Shown here piece after piece: positions 4,787 to 40,612 of a DNA stretch of 40,847 bases; position 1 is the first letter of the stretch; each line of letters begins with the position of its first letter. The translations under genes were made by a program, and so were the position numbers. Source of the stretch: Xanthobacteraceae bacterium. GTDB lineage: Bacteria > Pseudomonadota > Alphaproteobacteria > Rhizobiales > Xanthobacteraceae. The stretch spans positions 1 through 40,847 of the forward strand of contig JASHQS010000125.1 of the NCBI GenBank assembly GCA_030038995.1, written 5' to 3'. The notes beneath the pieces were generated by a model. It did not search any database. It was given only the letters and a program-made list of their open reading frames with translations, and had not been told where the DNA came from.

Positions 4787-5450
4787 GGCAGGCCTCCGCG
4801 AGTTTGAGAAAGGCGCGGGCGCGATGCGACAAGCCTTTGCCGCGCGGCGGCAGGCCGTGCTTTTCGACGCTCTCCATCTCGCCGAACGTGCGTGTATATC
4901 CGTCGGGCCGGAACATCGGATCGTAGCCAAATCCCTTGTCGCCGCGCGGCGGCCAGACCAGCGTGCCATCGACGCGGCCCTCGAAGTCCTCGACGTGGCC
5001 GTCCGGCCAGGCCACGCATAGCGCAGAGACGAACCGCGCGCGGCGCTGCTCCGGCGCGATGGCGCCTTGCTCGCCCAGTTTTTGTTCGATCGACCGCATG
5101 GCGCGCGCGAAATTCTTGTCCGGCCCCGCCCAGCGCGCCGAATGGATTCCCGGCGCGCCGCCGAGCGCATCGACCGCGAGCCCGGAATCGTCGGCGAAGG
5201 CCGGCAAGCCGCTGGCTTTGGCCGCCGCCTCCGCCTTGATGCGCGCATTATCGCGGAACGTCATTGCGGTCTCTTCCGGTTCGGCAAGTCCCAGTTCGCC
5301 CGCTGAGATGGCGCCGATCCCGTACGGCGCAAGCAGCTCGCGCATTTCCGCAAGCTTGCCGGGATTATGCGTCGCGATCACCAGACGGCAGACGCCAGAC
5401 GGCGGCTGACGGATTTTGCGATGTGCGCCCGCCGGCTCAAGGTCGTTCAT
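4773..5450 (-). CDS. rdgB: RdgB/HAM1-type non-canonical purine NTP pyrophosphatase
   Basis: Hydrolyses dITP, ITP and XTP to monophosphates, keeping deaminated purines out of DNA and RNA. Visible signatures: [17 protein letters not shown] (nucleotide-binding opening), [20 protein letters not shown] (catalytic Asp region) and [14 protein letters not shown] at the C-terminus. From the ATG at 5450 it is 225 aa, about 15-20 residues longer than I expect. The extra N-terminal stretch (…PPSGVCRL) is encoded by a 7-bp repeat array (CAGACGG units on the top strand), so the true start may be later. rph is 44 nt upstream; hemW overlaps the 3' end. Confidence 0.93.
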
Positions 5451-5490
5451 CTGGCGTCCGTCATCGTCATCCGTCGTCTGTCTTCCGCCT
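5382..5490. repeat. Facing heptamer arrays at the rph-rdgB junction (site D)
   Basis: Left arm: CAGACGG CAGACGC CAGACGG (5382-5402), degenerating after that. Right arm: cgtc/gtctg-rich units, about 5454-5490, partly complementary to the left arm. The left arm is translated as the RdgB N-terminus; the right arm is upstream of the RdgB ATG. This is the most degenerate of four such sites in the window. Confidence 0.5.
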
Positions 5491-18245: not shown

Positions 18246-19046
18246 ATGTGGGATGCGATGCCCCTGCCCGCCCTGCAGAAATTCGAACGCAAGATCGAGC
18301 GGCAAATTCGCCTCCTTGAGGCCAGAAAGTATCTTATCGAGCGCAAGATCGACCGGCAAATCCGGGTATTCGAGCGGAAGCGCGGCGATATCGGCAAGAA
18401 AATCGAGGAGCAGATTCGGCAGTTCGAGCGCAAGAAGGGCATCCGGCTCGATGACGAAGTGCGCTTCATTCGCTCCTGGATCGAGCGGCCGCTGACCATC
18501 GGCGCCGTCACCCCGTCCGGAAAAATCCTTGCCCGCGCCATGGCGCGCTATGTCGATCCGGCGAGCGAAGGCCCGGTGGTCGAGTTGGGACCGGGCACCG
18601 GGCCGGTGACGGAGGCGCTGGTGCAAGCTGGCGTGGCGCCCTCGCGTCTGGTGCTGGTCGAGTTCAATTCGACGTTTTGCCGGATCCTGCACGCGCGCTT
18701 TCCCGAAGCCACGCTGGTGCAGGGCGACGCCTATGGCTTGCGGCGGCTGCTTGCCAGCTTGCTGTTGCAGCCGGCCGCCGCGGTGGTCTCCGGCCTGCCG
18801 CTCGTCACCAAGCCGATCCGCCAGCGCCTGCGCCTGATCCGCGACGCCTTCGATCTGATGCTGCCCGGCGCGCCCTTCGTCCAGTTCACCTATTCGATGG
18901 CGGCACCGCTGCCGAAGCAGCTCGGCGGCTTTTCGGTGGAAGCCTCGAAACGCATCTGGATGAATCTGCCGCCGGCGCGGGTGTGGGTGTACCGGCGGTC
19001 AGAAGACAGAAATCAGAAATCGGAAATCAGAAATCGGAATGACTAG
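18246..19046 (+). CDS. pmtA: PmtA-like phospholipid N-methyltransferase with repeat-built N-terminal extension
   Basis: SAM-dependent methyltransferase related to PmtA, which converts phosphatidylethanolamine stepwise to phosphatidylcholine at the inner membrane. SAM motif I is VVELGPGTGPVTEALVQAG (about residues 114-132), followed by the acidic VLVEFNSTFC. IRSWIERPLTIGAVTPSGK just before the core and VVSGLPL are typical of the Pmt family. It has 266 aa against about 200 for many PmtA proteins. The excess is mostly residues about 13-66, three 18-residue repeats of an amphipathic, highly charged helix. The last residues (…NQKSEIRNRND) are translated from a 7-bp repeat array. In related rhizobia pmtA often lies near dnaJ. 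A second ATG at 18258 is possible. Confidence 0.88.
   Translation: MWDAMPLPALQKFERKIERQIRLLEARKYLIERKIDRQIRVFERKRGDIGKKIEEQIRQFERKKGIRLDDEVRFIRSWIERPLTIGAVTPSGKILARAMARYVDPASEGPVVELGPGTGPVTEALVQAGVAPSRLVLVEFNSTFCRILHARFPEATLVQGDAYGLRRLLASLLLQPAAAVVSGLPLVTKPIRQRLRLIRDAFDLMLPGAPFVQFTYSMAAPLPKQLGGFSVEASKRIWMNLPPARVWVYRRSEDRNQKSEIRNRND
18282..18443 (+). repeat. Three tandem 54-nt (18-aa) repeats inside pmtA
   Basis: The encoded units are FERKIERQIRLLEARKYL, IERKIDRQIRVFERKRGD and IGKKIEEQIRQFERKKGI. Shared core: (F/I)-x-(R/K)-K-I-x-x-Q-I-R at the same place in each unit. Eighteen residues equal five helical turns, so the I/F/L positions would line one face of a long, positively charged helix, as expected for membrane-surface binding. 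Confidence 0.85.
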
Positions 19047-19269
19047 AGCAGATCCCGCTCATGTAGCGCCACTTCCCCGTCATGCGCGGGCTTGACCCGC
19101 GCATCCATGCGGCCCCGACGCAGCATGGATTGCCGGGTCAAGTCCGGCAATGACGAACCGAGGAGTCGCGATTCGATCGGAGCGGAACATGCGCTAGGCA
19201 CAGATATCGCGAGCTTATCCGAACACTCTCTTCTGATTTCTGACTTCCGATTTCTGATTTCCGACTCGA
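19001..19269. repeat. Facing heptamer arrays around a palindromic element (site A)
   Basis: Left arm 19001-19042: AGAAGAC AGAAATC AGAAATC GGAAATC AGAAATC GGAATGA. Right arm 19235-19269: GATTTCT GACTTCC GATTTCT GATTTCC GACTCGA, the reverse complement type. The left arm is the end of the pmtA reading frame; the right arm ends 2 nt before the start codon of the flavin reductase gene. The 190 nt between hold the RPE-type palindromes listed separately. Confidence 0.85.
19082..19151. repeat. RPE-type double palindrome
   Basis: Hairpin 1: ATGCGCGGG/CCCGCGCAT with loop cttga (19082-19104). Hairpin 2: ATTGCCGG/CCGGCAAT with loop gtcaagt (19129-19151). Both are the classic intergenic palindromes seen in many copies in Bradyrhizobium-like genomes. 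They sit between the two arms of heptamer site A. Confidence 0.85.
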
Positions 19270-19271
19270 AC

Positions 19272-19847
19272 ATGCTCGCTCCAAAAATCCTCGTCATTCC
19301 CGGCTCGCTGCGGTCAGGCTCGCACAACGGACGGCTTGCCGCGCTTGCCGCCAAGGAGCTGGCGCTGGCCGAGGCCGAGGTCACGCGCATCTCGCTCGCC
19401 GACTATCCGCTGCCGCTATTCGACGCCGAGATGACCGCCGAGGTCGGTCCGCCGCAACACGCCGTGCAACTGCGGCACATGCTCGAAGCGCATCAGGGCG
19501 TGTTCATGACCAGTCCCGAATACAGCGCTTCGGTGACGCCGCTCGTCAAAAATACCATCGACTGGCTGTCGCGTGCCCGCGGCCAGCCGATTTATGCGGC
19601 CTTCAAGAATCGGGTGTTTGGCATCGGCGCGGCGTCGAGCGGTCCGGGCGGCGGCGTGCGTGCGCTCCTGGCGCTGCGCCAAATTCTTGAACTCGGCTGC
19701 GGCGCGCTGGTGATCCCCGAGCAGATTGCGGTCGGCAATGCCACCGAAGCGTTCGACGACATGGGCAATCTCAAGGACGAAAGCACCGCCACCGCCTTGA
19801 AGACCATGGCGCGTCGGCTGGTCGAGCTGGCGCGCGCCTTGGCGTGA
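19272..19847 (+). CDS. NADPH-dependent FMN reductase-like flavoprotein
   Basis: 191-aa flavodoxin-fold protein of the NADPH-dependent FMN reductase family (ChrR/azoreductase/quinone reductase relatives). [20 protein letters not shown] is the FMN phosphate-binding loop, and [20 protein letters not shown] is the family signature for the isoalloxazine site. [20 protein letters not shown] forms the second flavin loop. The likely job is NAD(P)H-dependent reduction of flavin, quinones or similar acceptors in the cytoplasm. The ATG at 19272 has no recognisable Shine-Dalgarno sequence: the bases upstream belong to heptamer site A. pyrF begins 14 nt after the stop. Confidence 0.9.
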
Positions 19848-20574: not shown

Positions 20575-20877
20575 ATGGCAAAGGGCTACTGGATTGCGCA
20601 TGTCGATGTGAAAAACGAAGAGGGCTTCAGGCCCTACGCGGCGGCCAACGGGCCGATCTTCAAGAAATTCGGCGGCCGCTACGTGGTGCGCGGCGGCAAG
20701 TTCGAAGGCATGGAAGGCGCTGCCCGTTCGCGCAACGTGGTGATCGAATTTCCCGATTACGCCACCGCGCTCGCCTGCTACCGCTCGCCCGAGTATCAGG
20801 AAAACATCAAGCGGCGCTTGCCGCATGGCACCGTCGATCTCATCGTCATCGAGGGCTACGACGGCGCGCAGCCGTGA
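20575..20877 (+). CDS. Single-domain DUF1330 protein
   Basis: 100-aa cytosolic protein made of one DUF1330 domain, a dimeric alpha/beta (ferredoxin-like) fold with no established function. Signatures: KGYWIAHVDV at the start, GRYVVRGG in the middle, RNVVIEFPDYATALACYRSP and the end VIEGYDG. The start follows GGGAG by 8 nt, and the gene is 14 nt from the pyrF stop. The next gene encodes two further copies of the same domain. Confidence 0.93.
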   Translation: MAKGYWIAHVDVKNEEGFRPYAAANGPIFKKFGGRYVVRGGKFEGMEGAARSRNVVIEFPDYATALACYRSPEYQENIKRRLPHGTVDLIVIEGYDGAQP

Positions 20878-20916
20878 CCGGCAAATTGCTGTCCATTGTC
20901 GCGAAAGGAGCAACCG

Positions 20917-21549
20917 ATGCCGAAAGGCTATTGGATTCCGCACGTCGATGTGACGGATGCGGAAGGCTACAAGGCCTATATGGCGGCGACGCCGCCGGCA
21001 CATGAAAAATATGGCGGCGTCGCGCTGGTGCGCGGCGGCAGATGCGAGGTGGTCGAGGGCCGCGCCCGCAGCCGCAACGTGCTGCGCGAATTTCCCGACT
21101 ATGCCGCGGCGCTCGCCTGCTACCACTCGGACGAATATCAGAACGCGCGCCTGCTGCGTCTGCCGCATTCGCAATGCGATTTCATCATCGCCGAGGGCTA
21201 CGACGGCCCGCAGCCGCCGCAAGGAGTCGCGGCGCCGGCCGCCACCGCGCGCAAGGGCTATTGGATCGGACACAGCGATGTGACCGAGCTCGAGAGCTAT
21301 AAGCGCTACATGGTCGCCGACCAGGAACCGATCGGCCGCTTTGGCGGCCGTTATCTGGTGCGCGGCGGTGCCAGCGAAGTCACCGAGGGTAAGGCGCGAA
21401 GCCGTACGGTGGTGCTGGAATTTCCGAGCTACGATGCCGCTTTGGCCTGCTACCGCTCGGACGGTTATCAAAAGGCCAAGACGTTTCGCGACGGCAACGC
21501 GGCGCTCGATCTCGTCATCGTCGAAGGCTACGACGGACCGAAATTCTGA
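20917..21549 (+). CDS. Tandem-duplicated DUF1330 protein
   Basis: 210-aa protein with two DUF1330 domains in one chain: residues about 1-95 ([10 protein letters not shown] ... FIIAEGYDG) and about 108-208 ([10 protein letters not shown] ... LVIVEGYDG). An A/P/T-rich linker of about 12 residues joins them. Each half keeps the VRGG, ARSR and E-F-P-x-Y-x-x-A-L-A-C-Y motifs, so both look structurally intact. Because DUF1330 domains dimerise, the fusion may form an intramolecular pair. Start ATG 20917 with AAAGGAG 7 nt upstream; TTG 20896 is open in frame but less likely. dapB follows. Confidence 0.9.
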
Positions 21550-22471: not shown

Positions 22472-22497
22472 GCTCGATCTGTGAGGGGTTGATTGCA

Positions 22498-23382
22498 ATG
22501 CATCTACAGCAAACAAAACGCGCCAGTGCGGCGTCCGGCGGGCCTCAGTACTATTTCCACGATCTTTCAGACGCGGTCAAAACGTACTTGCGGAGCAAGG
22601 GCGCAGTCCCGGTCGCACTCGTTACGCCTTATGGGGCAACAAAGTCACATTTCTTCGCGGTTGGGAAGGATCATAAGTTGGACGAGAAGGGGAAGGTGGT
22701 GCCGGGAAGCGTTGGTCATGACCGAATCCAACAGGGACAGGGAGAGGCCAGTATTGGCGAGCAAATCCGGCATTGGTATTCCCTGCCCGCAGGGCAATTC
22801 GAGCGCATTGACGTTGAAGTCGACACGATTGATGACGCCTTTTATATGAGGCCGATTGTTTGCAAATACGCAGGCTCCAAGAGGACAACGACGCTGCATA
22901 AAGTAGAGCGTCCTCTCACATTCACGCTCGACTATATAAGTCCGTTTTGGCGGCGACATTTGGAAAAGATTGGGCACGCAAAGCCGGAGGTGCTTGAATG
23001 GTCCGTCCGCGAAATATGCAGAATTGCAAAGGATCATCGTCCTGAAACGAAAATTCCGCATATCCTGGAGCCCGATTTGCTCCGCGCGTCAGGGCCTCTC
23101 AATCATCTCGGTGTGTTCCTGGGTCCTTACGTAGGCAAGGGATATGACTGCGCTTCGATTATCGAGTTTCTCGCATATCCACCCTACCGCGTGCCGGTCG
23201 AGATTAAGAAGAATAGTCACAATTTCCAGTATCAAGAGAAGAAATATGGCAAAGACGAGCTTAGCCGGGCGGTTATTCTCTGTGCAAATCATGATCATGA
23301 AGCTGTACGCCAGAACATCGATGTGATTGAACTTGAGGCGTTCTATAAATATGGCCGTGATGAACTCACGCTGGCATTATGA
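22498..23382 (+). CDS. Putative type II restriction endonuclease (PD-(D/E)XK-like)
   Basis: 294-aa protein with no family I can name by sequence. It is called a nuclease from a plausible PD-(D/E)XK site near the C-terminus: Asp ~217 in GKGYDCASIIEF, then PVEIKKN (Glu ~235 and Lys ~237), followed by a basic stretch QEKKYGKDE. Its stop overlaps the methyltransferase start in an ATGA, the usual linkage of restriction-modification pairs. The N-terminal 190 residues probably include target recognition. Base composition and codon use are clearly more AT-rich than dapB and gpmI on either side, a sign of transfer. The ATG at 22498 follows gagggg; TTG 22489 is also possible. Confidence 0.65.
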   Translation: MHLQQTKRASAASGGPQYYFHDLSDAVKTYLRSKGAVPVALVTPYGATKSHFFAVGKDHKLDEKGKVVPGSVGHDRIQQGQGEASIGEQIRHWYSLPAGQFERIDVEVDTIDDAFYMRPIVCKYAGSKRTTTLHKVERPLTFTLDYISPFWRRHLEKIGHAKPEVLEWSVREICRIAKDHRPETKIPHILEPDLLRASGPLNHLGVFLGPYVGKGYDCASIIEFLAYPPYRVPVEIKKNSHNFQYQEKKYGKDELSRAVILCANHDHEAVRQNIDVIELEAFYKYGRDELTLAL

Positions 23383-24890
23383 ACTTCTACCGGAACGTTG
23401 TGGCAATTCAGCATCCGATCTCGGCAGAGCGTCAAACTGCGAAGCGGCACTATGGCGTGCATCCGTATTTTACCAGGCGCCCGTTTAATGTCGTGCGTGA
23501 TTATATACTGCACTATTCGCGGCCTGGAGATCGGGTAATCGATCCGTTTGGGGGATCGGGCGTCACTGCAATAGAGGCGTTCCTGGAAAATCGGATTGGG
23601 GTTCACAACGACCTCAATCCGCTGGCAAACTTCATCGCGAGCGGTATCGCGGGCCTGGCCAAAGGAAATCTTTCCGATTATCGAGATGCACTGGCAGCCA
23701 TGGAGTCGGCGTGCTCAGGGATTTTGTTCGAGATAGAGAAGTCGGGTGATGACGAATTAGATCGCTACCAAAAGCAGTTTCGATTGCCGAAGAATGTCGT
23801 ACTCCCAGCGAATTCAGACGTAACGTTGCTGTACGATCTATTTGAGCCGAAACAATTAGCCGCGCTTGCTGTGATCCGAGAGCAAGTTGCGAGAATATCA
23901 AATAAGTATGCGCGCAATGCAATGTTGCTGGCATTCTCCGCAACGCTGGCGAAACTAAATCGCACCTTTCTTTCGGCAGAAGGTCGATTGGCGTCGCGTG
24001 GGGGGTCAAGCATATTCAGCATTTACAGGTACAAAGTGGCAAAAAAGCCCGTGCGATTGCCGCTGTGGCCGACATTCCGAGAGCGCGCAATGAATGTGCT
24101 GGCGGCAAAAGCTGAAGTCGATCAGACTATTGAGCACAAGCGACAATCATCGGCTGGTTGGCATGGAGAATTTCATGCATACGACAGGGATGTGTTGGAG
24201 CTTCCCCAGGTGCTCGGGCGCACAGCTGATTATATCTTCACCGATCCACCATACGGAGGCCATATCGCCTATCTCGATTTGTCTACGATGTGGAACGCAT
24301 GGCTCGGCATTTTGCCAACTCCTTCCAGAGCCAAACATGAAATAATCGTTGGCGGCGATCGAAAACATGCCGATCAGGCCTACACAGAGCGCCTCGGATC
24401 GAGTATTCGTGCGTGCCTCGATCTATTAAAGCCGGATCGCTGGCTATCCGTTGTTTTCCAGCATTGGAACACTTCGTATTTTCAAACCATTTTGACCTCG
24501 GCTGCGGACTCGGGCGCAGATTTGCGTGCCGCGGTGCCTCAGGTTGGTGATCCAATTTGGTCGATGCACAAGAAGAAAGGTAGTGCATCGGTGTTGGCAG
24601 GGGAGCTCATCCTGTCGTTCTTCAATACAGGAAGAGCTGTTAAGTATGAACTCGGCCAAAAATTTGATCTTGAGAGCGAACTCTACCAACTCCTGCGTGA
24701 AATGCACGAGCCGCTTTATGGCGAGGCTTTGTTCAATAGAATTGTGTTGCGCGCCTGGCATAAGGGCGCAATCAATTCATTGGGTATTTCAAAGAGCGAT
24801 TTTGCCCAAATGCTGCTTGATATGGGCTGGCAGTACGACCAGCGTAGCCATTTTTGGGTGACTACCCATAGAGCACGCCGCTTGATCTGA
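23379..24890 (+). CDS. DNA methyltransferase (amino-MTase, DPPY type) of an R-M pair
   Basis: 503-aa SAM-dependent DNA methylase. Motif I (SAM-binding) is RVIDPFGGSGVTAIEA at about residues 52-67, followed by NRIGVHNDLNPLANF (acidic residue for the ribose). The catalytic motif IV is TDPPYGG at about 288-294, which marks N6-adenine or N4-cytosine methylation. The order I then IV with about 225 residues between, and the opening HPYFTRRPFNVVRDYI, are those of large single-chain enzymes; a recognition domain may lie in the 100-280 stretch or at the C-terminus. It overlaps the nuclease gene by 4 nt. AT-rich like its partner. The exact modified base cannot be told. Confidence 0.85.
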   Translation: MNFYRNVVAIQHPISAERQTAKRHYGVHPYFTRRPFNVVRDYILHYSRPGDRVIDPFGGSGVTAIEAFLENRIGVHNDLNPLANFIASGIAGLAKGNLSDYRDALAAMESACSGILFEIEKSGDDELDRYQKQFRLPKNVVLPANSDVTLLYDLFEPKQLAALAVIREQVARISNKYARNAMLLAFSATLAKLNRTFLSAEGRLASRGGSSIFSIYRYKVAKKPVRLPLWPTFRERAMNVLAAKAEVDQTIEHKRQSSAGWHGEFHAYDRDVLELPQVLGRTADYIFTDPPYGGHIAYLDLSTMWNAWLGILPTPSRAKHEIIVGGDRKHADQAYTERLGSSIRACLDLLKPDRWLSVVFQHWNTSYFQTILTSAADSGADLRAAVPQVGDPIWSMHKKKGSASVLAGELILSFFNTGRAVKYELGQKFDLESELYQLLREMHEPLYGEALFNRIVLRAWHKGAINSLGISKSDFAQMLLDMGWQYDQRSHFWVTTHRARRLI

Positions 24891-27673: not shown

Positions 27674-27763
27674 CTGGATTGGCGAAGTGGCGCATGGCGA
27701 ACTGGCGCATAGCCAATAGGGTGCGGCTCTTTCATTCGCCATTCGCCATTCGCTATGCGCCAC
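27674..27763. repeat. Facing heptamer arrays (site C)
   Basis: Left arm about 27680-27712 has GGCGAAG/GGCGCAT/GGCGAAC-type units (one is 8 bp). Right arm 27734-27761: ATTCGCC ATTCGCC ATTCGCT ATGCGCC, the reverse complement. The spacer is about 18 nt. The right arm ends next to the DUF2244 stop codon (27764-27766). Located between that gene's 3' end and the Ada-like gene's 5' end. Confidence 0.8.
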
Positions 27764-29236: not shown

Positions 29237-29731
29237 TTATGTGCGCGCCTGCGCGAATTCGGCGAATTCGTCGACGACGCGCTCGTAAACCGGGCGCTTG
29301 AACGGCACCACCAGCGCCGGGATGTTTTCCAGCGCCTCCCATCGCCAGGCCGAGAATTCCGCCTCATGGCGGCCGGCGGGCCGTACGATGTCGATTTCGC
29401 TTTCCGCGCCGGTGAAGCGGACCGCGAACCATTTTTGCGTCTGGCCGCGATAGCGGCCGTTCCAGGCTTGGCCGATGCGGCCGGGCGGAATGTCGTAGTT
29501 GAGCCATGCGGCGATTTCGCCGAGCTGTTCGACCGAGCGGATGTTGGTTTCTTCGTACAGCTCGCGCCGCGCGGCGGGCCACGGTTCTTCGCCGGCATCG
29601 ATGCCGCCCTGCGGCATCTGCCAGGCATGCGCCATATCGACGTGCTCGGGGCCGCCGGTACGGCGGCCGATGAAGGCAAGGCCGTCGCGGTTGAGCACCA
29701 TGATGCCGACGCAGGGACGGTAGGGGAGCAT
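29237..29731 (-). CDS. rppH: RNA pyrophosphohydrolase
   Basis: Nudix hydrolase that removes pyrophosphate from 5'-triphosphate mRNA ends, opening them to decay. The Nudix box G-x5-E-x7-R-E-x2-E-E is seen in [20 protein letters not shown] (residues about 42-61). The N-terminus [20 protein letters not shown] and WQMPQGG are RppH-typical, as is the C-terminal [11 protein letters not shown]. 164 aa, expected length. The ATG at 29731 has only a poor Shine-Dalgarno, because the upstream bases are the heptamer array of site B. Downstream member of the envC-ctpA-deacetylase-rppH series. Confidence 0.94.
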
Positions 29732-29810
29732 CAGGTATCAATAATCAGTGGTCAGTAGTCAGGCAATACCGGCATTTTATCCGATCACTGATGACTGATA
29801 GCTGTCTCCT
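29730..29810. repeat. Facing heptamer arrays between deacetylase-like gene and rppH (site B)
   Basis: Left arm 29730-29764: ATCAGGT ATCAATA ATCAGTG GTCAGTA GTCAGGC. Right arm 29783-29810: GATCACT GATGACT GATAGCT GTCTCCT (its reverse complement type). The spacer is 18 nt. The right arm encodes the last residues and stop of the divergent deacetylase-like protein; the left arm fills the rppH leader. Confidence 0.8.
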
Positions 29811-31041
29811 GCCGCTTTGCCACGGCGGTGATCGGCACCAGAAGAATGCCGCGGTCTTGCACGGCCTTGGCCCATTTGGCGATGTGGTCGATCGACACCG
29901 GAAGCGCCGAGGCGATGCCGACCGCGACGTGATGCTCGCGGGCCGCCGTTTCCAGACGGCCGAGCGCGCGATCGATCTCGCCCGGAGTGGGCACCGCGTC
30001 GATGATCACCTCGGCTTCGGCGAACGGCAAGTTGTCGGCGCCGGCAATCCGTCCGGCGACGCTGCGCGGATTGGCGCCGTCATCGACGAAAATCAACCCG
30101 CGGTCGGCGATCTCGTGCAAGATCGGCGCAAACGACTGCTCGGAGGCGGTGAAGCGCGCGCCCATCATGTCGATGAGCCCGACGTAACCTTGGAACCGGC
30201 TCATCACCCAATGCAGCCGGTCGCGGTTTTGCTGCGGCGTGAGCGAGGTCAGCAGGGTCTGCGGGCCGGGGTCGTTGTCCGGATAGCTGAAGGGTTCCAT
30301 CGGCACTTGCAGCAGGATTTCGTGGCCGCCGGCCCGTGCCCGCGCCACCGACGCGGCATCGTTGCCGTACGGCACGAAGGCGAGCGTGACCGGCCCCGGC
30401 AGCCGCGTGATGGCATCGGACGTGGTCTTGGCGCTCACCCCCAAGCCGCTGACGATCAACGCGATACGCGGCGCGTCGGGCTTGCCGGCGAGCGCTTCTA
30501 CCGGTTGGGCAAATGCGTCTGCCGGCCGCACCCCGTCGGCCGCGATCTTCGGAATCGGACCCTGTGCCGTCATCTCGACGAATTTTGCGTCGGCGGGAGC
30601 GCTGATTGCTGGCGACGATCCGTTGCCTGCAAGAGCGGGGGTGGGGATCGTCACCTCCTGACGCGCTCCGGTCATGCCGTTGATGATATTGACCGTGGTG
30701 GTCCCGTTCGGCGGTTCCGCCGCTTTGGCCTGCTTCACCTTCTGGGCCGGATTGGGCGGTGAGCCTTCTTGAGCCGGGCCGTCGTAGCGGCCGGGACCTC
30801 CATGACCCGCGGCGGCTGCATGCACCGCCGGCGTGGCGGATGTGCCGGCCGGCAAATGGGTCGGGACCACGGCCATGGGCTCGCCGCCCAGCGGATCGTC
30901 GCCGATGGCCGCCCACAGCACAAACGTGCCGAGAAAAAGCGCCAGCGCGCCGGCAACGACATATGGCAGGGGGATGCGGACGGCGCGCCGGCGGCGGGTC
31001 CGCCGCTGACCAAGCGGCGCGTTCAAGTCATCCGTGGTCAT
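29785..31041 (-). CDS. Divergent polysaccharide deacetylase-like protein (YibQ type)
   Basis: 418-aa membrane-anchored protein. After a basic N-terminus there is one hydrophobic segment, YVVAGALALFLGTFVLWAAI (about 26-45), then a Pro/Ala/Gly-rich linker to about 170. The C-terminal domain (about 185-400) is of the divergent polysaccharide deacetylase family: ARIALIVSG-like PRIALIVSGLGVSAKTTSDA, LAFVPYGND, HEILLQVPMEPFSYPDNDPG and IFVDDGANP. E. coli yibQ also sits beside envC and gpmI, so a cell-envelope role is likely; the reaction is unproven. The C-terminal …RQETAISHQ is encoded by the heptamer array of site B. Downstream of ctpA. Confidence 0.85.
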   Translation of the reverse strand: MTTDDLNAPLGQRRTRRRRAVRIPLPYVVAGALALFLGTFVLWAAIGDDPLGGEPMAVVPTHLPAGTSATPAVHAAAAGHGGPGRYDGPAQEGSPPNPAQKVKQAKAAEPPNGTTTVNIINGMTGARQEVTIPTPALAGNGSSPAISAPADAKFVEMTAQGPIPKIAADGVRPADAFAQPVEALAGKPDAPRIALIVSGLGVSAKTTSDAITRLPGPVTLAFVPYGNDAASVARARAGGHEILLQVPMEPFSYPDNDPGPQTLLTSLTPQQNRDRLHWVMSRFQGYVGLIDMMGARFTASEQSFAPILHEIADRGLIFVDDGANPRSVAGRIAGADNLPFAEAEVIIDAVPTPGEIDRALGRLETAAREHHVAVGIASALPVSIDHIAKWAKAVQDRGILLVPITAVAKRQETAISHQ

Positions 31042-40288: not shown

Positions 40289-40612
40289 ATGATCCAATTG
40301 CTGCGCTATCAGCGCGCGGATGGCCGCGAGCCCTTCAGCGAATGGCTGAACGGCTTGCGCGACCTCAAGGCGCAGGCACGCATCCGGGTGCGGCTGAACC
40401 ACTTGGCGCTGGGCAACTTCGGCGATTGCGAGCCGGTGGGCGAAGGCGTCCTCGAACTGCGCGTCCATGTGGGGGCCGGCTATCGCGTCTATTGCGCCCG
40501 GCATGGCAAGGCGGTCGTGCTGCTGCTCACGGGCGGCGACAAATCGAGCCAGCAGACGGATATCAGGCGAGCGAAGGAATTGTGGGCGGACTGGAAGCGG
40601 AGGCAGGCATGA
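40289..40612 (+). CDS. RelE/HigB-type addiction module toxin (COG3657-like)
   Basis: 107-aa protein of the RelE/ParE superfamily, phage-derived Gp49-like/'addiction module killer' group. Features: REPFSEWLNGLRDLKAQARI (two N-terminal helices), RVRLNHLALGNFGDCEPVGE, then the beta-sheet core GVLELRVHVGAGYRVYCARH and VVLLLTGGDKSSQQTDI with a basic end. Probably an mRNA interferase acting at the ribosome, neutralised by the next gene product. It overlaps the antitoxin by an ATGA and has a palindrome upstream. Confidence 0.85.
   Translation: MIQLLRYQRADGREPFSEWLNGLRDLKAQARIRVRLNHLALGNFGDCEPVGEGVLELRVHVGAGYRVYCARHGKAVVLLLTGGDKSSQQTDIRRAKELWADWKRRQA

Follow-up and report, generated by a model that had tools for sequence, protein, structure and literature searches.

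What keeps long simple repeats in bacteria at 7 bases, and why they should stand in facing pairs, is a question on which the junction between pmtA and a flavin reductase gene (site A) bears directly. It lies in a stretch of 40,847 nucleotides from a Xanthobacteraceae bacterium, referred to here as the window, in which the gene names pmtA, rph, rdgB, rppH and DUF2244 are presumptive. The 5' arm of site A (18,998 to 19,039, forward strand) is a degenerate (CRGAART)n array of about six units. It doubles as coding sequence for most of the final 15 pmtA codons and has the pmtA stop codon TAG (19,044 to 19,046, forward strand) directly behind it. The 3' arm (19,230 to 19,266, reverse strand), the reverse complement of (CRGAART)n in about five units, ends 5 bp short of the flavin reductase ATG (19,272), and a loop of about 190 bp separates the two. 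With up to two mismatches, CAGAAATCAGAAAT has eight matches in the window, every one at site A, compared to a mean of 0.11 in shuffled sequence, where eight matches were reached in none of 100 shuffles. The predicted RNA fold of 18,995 to 19,275 has an energy of -132.8 kcal/mol (z = -9.2), equalled by none of 200 shuffles. Both results confirm the facing 7-bp arrays that an earlier note on this DNA had described at site A. Its claim that the left array extends PmtA also holds: translated in frame, the conserved WVYR of PmtA is followed by 16 codons (the last 15 from 18,999) and TAG, whereas in five relatives without arrays (G001, G008, G011, G014 and G017) the protein stops two codons past WVYR.

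Three further sites in the window show the same architecture, each with a different 7-mer as previously claimed. Site B (unit CRGAYGR, 5,382 to 5,489) has its left arm (5,382 to 5,414, forward strand) within the N-terminal coding region of an rdgB-like gene on the reverse strand, the start codon of which probably lies in the loop, and its right arm (5,447 to 5,489, reverse strand) adjoins the stop codon of an rph-like gene. At site C (degenerate GCGARTR, 27,686 to 27,763) the left arm (27,686 to 27,727, forward strand) was recovered in two pieces in the scan, and the right arm (27,733 to 27,763, reverse strand) adjoins the stop codon of a DUF2244-like gene. The left arm of site D (CAGNNRT, 29,730 to 29,811) is located at the start of an rppH-like gene on the reverse strand (29,730 to 29,765, forward strand), and the right arm (29,778 to 29,811, reverse strand) runs across the end of the gene upstream (ORF 29,785 to 31,041, reverse strand). 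Elsewhere in the window, consecutive ORFs at 20,575 to 21,549 contain similar small domains, which we take to resemble DUF1330-like proteins; an ORF pair between dapB-like and gpmI-like genes (22,489 to 24,890) has, by eye, the look of a nuclease and a DNA methyltransferase, and a small ORF at 40,289 to 40,612 resembles by eye the HigB/RelE-type toxin of a toxin-antitoxin pair.

The genome of the window (4.6 Mb in 316 contigs, 90.7% complete) was read over about 0.6 Mb. Arrays of four unit families were scanned for in 41 stretches (516,512 bp) with no partner demanded, and all 16 arrays scoring at least 20, a threshold picked after the list had been seen, face a partner of the same family, together forming 10 pairs. 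Reversed units gave two matches at that score, both for the CAGACGA unit, and none for the three other units. Among all 115 matches, 25 face the same family and three a different one, 13 lie beside a match that does not face them, and 74 stand by themselves; the reversed units gave 76 matches at all scores, so that the low-score matches are mixed with background. A strict scan of 80 named loci (1,251,064 bp), covering periods 5, 7, 8, 10, 11, 13 and 14, found eight facing pairs at period 7, seven of which are at the junction used to fetch these loci. Period 14, itself twice 7, gave four, and periods 5, 8, 10, 11 and 13 gave none. Same-direction strict pairs at period 7 were absent from the same loci. 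At a looser threshold the 516,512 bp of the window's own genome contain 13 facing pairs at period 7, four of which look unrelated by eye (G+C-rich or palindromic), versus two in one simulated set. The counts are 8, 5, 4, 2 and 4 at periods 5, 8, 10, 11 and 13, and 34, 25 and 21 at periods 6, 9 and 12, where same-direction pairs are equally or more numerous. Inverted period-7 pairs are, by both the strict and the looser count, commoner than chance, which is the outcome on which the earlier note had let its reading depend. Facing heptamer arrays are confirmed as a genome-wide class located between genes. A strict inverted-repeat search of the 516,512 bp (110 inverted versus 36 mirror repeats) was given up as a detector, as it yielded four finds with periodic arms (three of period 7 and one of period 14) and missed degenerate sites, and was replaced by array-first scans.

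The geometry of the class was studied in a curated set of 66 sites from the window's genome and its relatives, most of them chosen by matches to the GGCGAAT or CAGAAAT pattern. The set derives from 78 raw sites, of which three were removed by hand (L113 and L150, G+C-rich coding matches, and L199:10117, in which two adjacent sites had been cross-paired) before duplicates and overlaps were collapsed. In all 66 sites purines are more frequent in the 5' arm (mean content 0.69) than in the 3' arm (0.31), a rule to which the removed L199:10117 would be an exception. Gene directions were taken from a home-made simple codon model, which replaced a first model that told strands poorly. With both neighbours resolved at 48 sites, 31 junctions are co-directional, 12 convergent and five divergent; a second way of placing stops with the same codon model gave 30, 14 and three for 47 sites. 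Among 69 located stop codons, 40 are inside the hairpin, 23 at most 15 nt outside and six further away, proportions that stand without a matched background. The inner arm ends favour one phase of the unit, as seen in 26 of 52 GCGAAT arms (about eight expected) and in 20 of the 37 that are at least 28 nt long (5.8 expected, p = 3e-8), the latter bias holding for left and right arms separately. The restriction to 28 nt was made because some sites had been found with a 16-mer edged at the preferred phase, a possible bias in short arms. The CAGAAAT family shows the same preference (p about 1e-4), and the phase p-values are optimistic in that the two arms of one site are not independent. The phase bias of the outer arm ends is weaker than that of the inner ends.

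Loops measure 0 to 72 nt in 64 sites and are longer at site A (191 nt) and at one other (109 nt). Between the arms of site A the earlier note had placed two hairpins of an RPE palindrome, and a palindrome is indeed present, though as one composite CGTC-tagged repeat (about 19,078 to 19,160) that is dispersed in the genome. When up to three mismatches are allowed, a pattern made from its first half is matched 61 times in the window's genome, 49 of them mismatch-free, and the reversed control has no match. The palindrome is judged incidental to the heptamer arrays, because it is missing from G018, G009 and G002, orthologues of the same clade that do carry the arrays, and because loops in the curated set have a median of 19 nt. 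It starts with CGTC and fits the kind of the CGTC-tagged palindromic repeats (BMC Genomics 2013, PMC3733652), and stands apart from the heptamer class. In G017 and G004, which have no heptamer arrays at the pmtA-flavin reductase junction, a different palindrome is found there.

The window's four junctions were compared across as many as 17 genomes belonging to the genus, which we take to be GTDB BOG-931, the assemblies being fragmented and a pair being called where both arms reached a score of at least 11. Facing pairs are present in 31 of 62 junction-by-species cases and in none of 186 shuffled regions, for which the split points were spaced more coarsely than in the scan of the real ones. 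Cases with a contig end, a different neighbour or a non-orthologue were left out (G004 and G012 at junction A, G002 and the fragments of G001 at B, G017 at C and paralogues at D). Junction A has CAGAAAT in five species, CAGACGA in three, a weak case in one and none in six. At junction B the corresponding figures are ten for CAGACGA, one for GCGAAT, one weak and five without, and at junction C four for GCGAAT, one weak and ten without. Junction D has CAGNNAT in three, CAGACGA in three, GCGAAT and CAGAAAT in one each, one weak case and six without. Unit families thus number four at D and two each at A and B, both arms differ together between species, and array-free orthologues occur at each of the four junctions. 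On a tree of three concatenated proteins at least five changes of state are required at A, at least three at B and at least eight at D, the weak cases of G006 (A), G017 (B) and G019 (D) and the sub-threshold G004 (D) being counted as the named family. At junction A, the clade of G000, G018, G009 and G002 (support 100/99) carries CAGAAAT, CAGACGA is the unit in the adjacent G005 and, with a weak score, in G006, and CAGAAAT is found again in G013, which lies further off; related hairpins occur at this junction in still more distant species (L146, and by eye L132 and L134). A long array of the GCGAAT type stands alone at junction C of G011, an exception to the pairing (L257; scores of 30.5 on the left versus 5.5 on the right in about 120 nt examined). 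Period and inversion are kept while the unit differs, not only between the sites of one genome, as had been pointed out before, but also between species at the same junction. This shows that the layout, in the sense of period, inversion and position, outlasts the unit sequence at fixed junctions. The cores between the arms were also compared. At junction D nine of 36 pairs of cores stood at a level reached by at most 10 of 200 shuffles, including the cross-family pair of G019 with G013 and the pair of the G005 loop with the corresponding region of array-free G001 (3 of 200 shuffles were as good); at junction B one of 16 pairs reached that level. These likenesses are suggestive of a core at junction D that may have been retained rather than added as filler. 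The rppH-like orthologues of G006, G011, G003 and G014 (L270, L275, L277 and L280) align across one in-frame stop codon.

Beyond the genus, array expansions are patchy by lineage across the family. The CAGAAAT pattern CAGAAATCAGAAATCAG, with up to two mismatches, matches in 62 of 198 genomes, mostly in few copies, and in none of the other 136; the highest counts are 101 in G000, 42 in G064, 30 in G009 and 15 each in G013 and G147, the reversed controls being zero in these five. The GGCGAAT pattern GGCGAATGGCGAATGG matches in 146 of 149 genomes, typically about 3 to 15 times, and rises to 144 in G101, 96 in G043, 93 in G000, 56 in G046, 45 in G167 and 41 in G058, where the reversed control gives one to five.

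In order to understand how the arms evolve, mispairs, arm likeness, unit order and arm length were compared. Sense-strand mispairs, which selection on RNA pairing would be expected to tilt towards G-U, comprise 36 G-U versus 52 A-C at the 31 co-directional sites (p = 0.11; strands by the simple codon model). Cognate arms are not more alike than non-cognate ones in the largest family, GCGAAT of G000 (24 sites; 0.64 versus 0.65; 557 of 5000 permutations), and are less alike in G064 (five sites; 4740 of 5000), whereas in the CAGAAAT family of G000 they are more alike (10 sites; 33 of 5000) and two small CAGNNAT sets lean to cognate matching (401 and 190 of 5000). Mirrored unit order is better than shuffled order (z > 0) at 30 of 45 sites. 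Arm lengths show no correlation in the curated set of 66 as a whole (rho 0.16, p = 0.21). Within the CAGNNAT family (13 sites) the correlation is negative (rho -0.60, p = 0.03). The two arms share the word and hardly its spelling order, and turnover at the DNA level is therefore favoured. Of the origins listed in the earlier note, mRNA hairpins under selection find no support, as G-U does not exceed A-C and cognate arms of the largest family match no better; slippage with template switching stands as a candidate, although a simple fold-back copy of one arm is argued against by the uncorrelated lengths and the weak or absent mirrored order.

The reading preferred here, though held with somewhat less than even confidence, is that site A is a copy of a dispersed, DNA-level, concertedly evolving paired heptanucleotide satellite, maintained by slippage and exchange between arms. 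Two facing arrays of one degenerate 7-bp unit would flank a short core and fill the space between neighbouring genes. Each arm would gain and lose units via replication slippage, and the arms, and to some degree other sites too, would swap unit sequence when a hairpin lets the polymerase switch templates or leads to conversion. Both arms would thus change their unit together while period, inversion and position persist. Longer C-termini, a strong stem-loop between cistrons and other effects on genes would be by-products. The class itself, its same-family pairing, its polarity and the replacement of units at fixed junctions are established by the counts given above; slippage and inter-arm exchange are what we infer as their cause. 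In favour of the satellite are the 16 of 16 pairing, the 31 of 62 junction cases, the lack of a G-U excess, the cognate likeness in the CAGAAAT family of G000, the patchy expansion and the array-free orthologues. Against it stand the uncorrelated arm lengths and the GCGAAT and G064 cognate arms, which are not more alike. It predicts neither the polarity (66 of 66) nor the phase of the inner ends, and confidence is kept below even because it accounts neither for these two features nor for the origin of new sites.

The same observations bear on explanations at other levels. On an RNA-level reading the arms would pair in read-through transcripts and, in the manner proposed for REP/BIME hairpins, serve at gene junctions to protect mRNA, terminate it or attenuate it. 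The strong predicted fold of site A, the 63 of 69 stop codons inside or within 15 nt of a hairpin (without matched background) and the rarity of divergent junctions (five of 48, or three of 47 by the other method) are in line with this. Such a role is nevertheless unlikely, given the mispair ratio at the co-directional sites, the GCGAAT family of G000 with no site-specific complementarity, and the presence of pairs at convergent junctions too (12 of 48). Constant period and polarity would also be expected if the arrays flanked a promoter or start site and were bound there by a protein touching DNA or RNA at 7-base intervals, and the resemblance of the G005 loop to array-free G001 at junction D agrees with this; but the diversity of units within a single genome and at a single junction would call for several proteins or non-specific ones, which makes binding sites quite unlikely. 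A mobile hairpin element of MITE or REP type, copied from site to site, would explain why each unit family recurs at scattered places in the genome with fixed polarity, and a Y1 transposase match was found in 11 of 26 genomes, strongly in the array-bearing G009 and G018. The match is absent from the array-rich G064, G101 and G043, and the loops are by eye unlike one another except in orthologous copies, in contrast to the truly dispersed palindrome of site A, of which most copies fit the pattern without mismatch. The facing arrays appear to lack the conserved copies, centre included (loops by eye), with an associated transposase that characterize REP, MITE and CGTC-tagged repeats, and a mobile origin is considered very unlikely.

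Two further explanations concern how heptamers are made. In plain slippage the arrays would arise singly and their inversion would be due to chance. An earlier survey does state that, in the majority of genomes, heptamers were the most abundant class among long simple repeats, but the inversion with family match in 16 of 16 arrays scoring at least 20, and the absence of same-direction strict period-7 pairs, leave this close to negligible. The other holds that, where DNA was nicked or broken, a telomerase- or DRT10-like enzyme added one and the same 7-nt word to each of two 3' ends pointing towards each other, which were then joined, the arrays being scars of a dedicated 7-nt addition at nicked or broken gene junctions. 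DRT10 makes tandem-repeat DNA by a telomerase-like mechanism (PMC12632851, available text). Templated extension predicts fixed polarity, same-family pairs, independent length and order, unlike loops and a preferred stopping phase. Also in its favour, reverse transcriptase matches are present in seven of nine array-rich genomes (at least 30 pattern hits) versus four of 17 others (p = 0.013), G018 and some others not being counted for both patterns. Seven of these enzymes were scanned: all are best matched by group II intron reverse transcriptase/maturase models (NCBIfam), and PADLOC ranks its general reverse transcriptase model first for all seven. A PF00078 match is absent from the array-rich G064 and the single-contig G167, and G000 has a 25-bit fragment below the cut-off, so that a suitable reverse transcriptase was not found in every array-rich genome. 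Several units per genome would need several templates, and at junction D the core has the look of retained sequence, not of filler. Templated extension is accordingly regarded as highly improbable; if true, it would mean interstitial telomere-like repeats in bacteria, the word of which changes over time while length and polarity stay fixed. As an observation in its own right, reverse transcriptases of the group II intron type (G101, G043, G013, G058 and others; L287-L294) are commoner in array-rich genomes.

The satellite has its closest known counterpart in Xanthomonas. Rehm et al. 2015 (PMC4692102) report, in the text available, GGGAATC/GGGNATC heptamers in Xanthomonas and Nostoc with no role identified. 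Two nearby convergent arrays, one per strand, occur in 70 (Xcc) and 75 (Xac) cases, and the pairs are treated there as G-quadruplex formers with four units preferred. The two systems share period 7, an intergenic position, degenerate units, some of them over stop codons, a G-rich strand that reads away from the ORF, and few cases between divergent ORFs. Tandem 7-bp units in inverted intergenic pairs and a purine- or G-rich strand pointing out of the gene towards intergenic DNA (all 66 curated sites) are found here as well, whereas the GGGNATC quadruplex unit is not, as CRGAART and GCGARTR contain no GGG; the third family has GGG in its CAGGGAT variant, and the two commonest units are without it in their consensus. 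Compared to the one G-rich unit described for Xanthomonas in the accessible text (PMC4692102), several units coexist here, all 16 strong arrays are paired and units are replaced at individual junctions. The arrays and the convergent heptamer pairs of Xanthomonas are thus objects of one kind.

Other systems share single features. In the P6b stem of the Nostoc trnL intron (Kaasalainen et al. 2015, PMC4476775, available text) the stem is built of one of two classes of 7-nt motif, and repeated independent class replacement occurs at one place; that case concerns one locus in a structured intron RNA, as opposed to dozens of junctions with no known RNA constraint here. Geobacter metallireducens also has dispersed tandem 7-mers, with 15 sites of five units and a consensus MTYCTGA, which by our own comparison is near the 3' arm unit TTTCTGA; in the available part of the paper (PMC2700814) they are described as predicted regulator sites or RNA elements rather than facing pairs. 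The TAACTGA repeats of Beggiatoaceae are, in the accessible description, direct with one inverted case. The accessible text of a Bradyrhizobium repeat paper (PMC5082802) describes other palindromes and does not contain the word 'heptamer', and no report of facing heptamers in this family was recognised by title or abstract, subscription papers lying outside this scope. New compared to what is known are therefore the commonest units without GGG tracts, the several units per genome and the fact that, at ordinary junctions between genes, one unit has repeatedly taken the place of another.

That layout and polarity hold without GGG tracts, and with units that are swapped, separates the cause of the layout from its sequence. 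The four mapped junctions constitute natural before-and-after cases, in which an array-free state, one unit and another unit are found at the same place in related species, and such cases could tell apart slippage, arm-to-arm conversion and templated addition.
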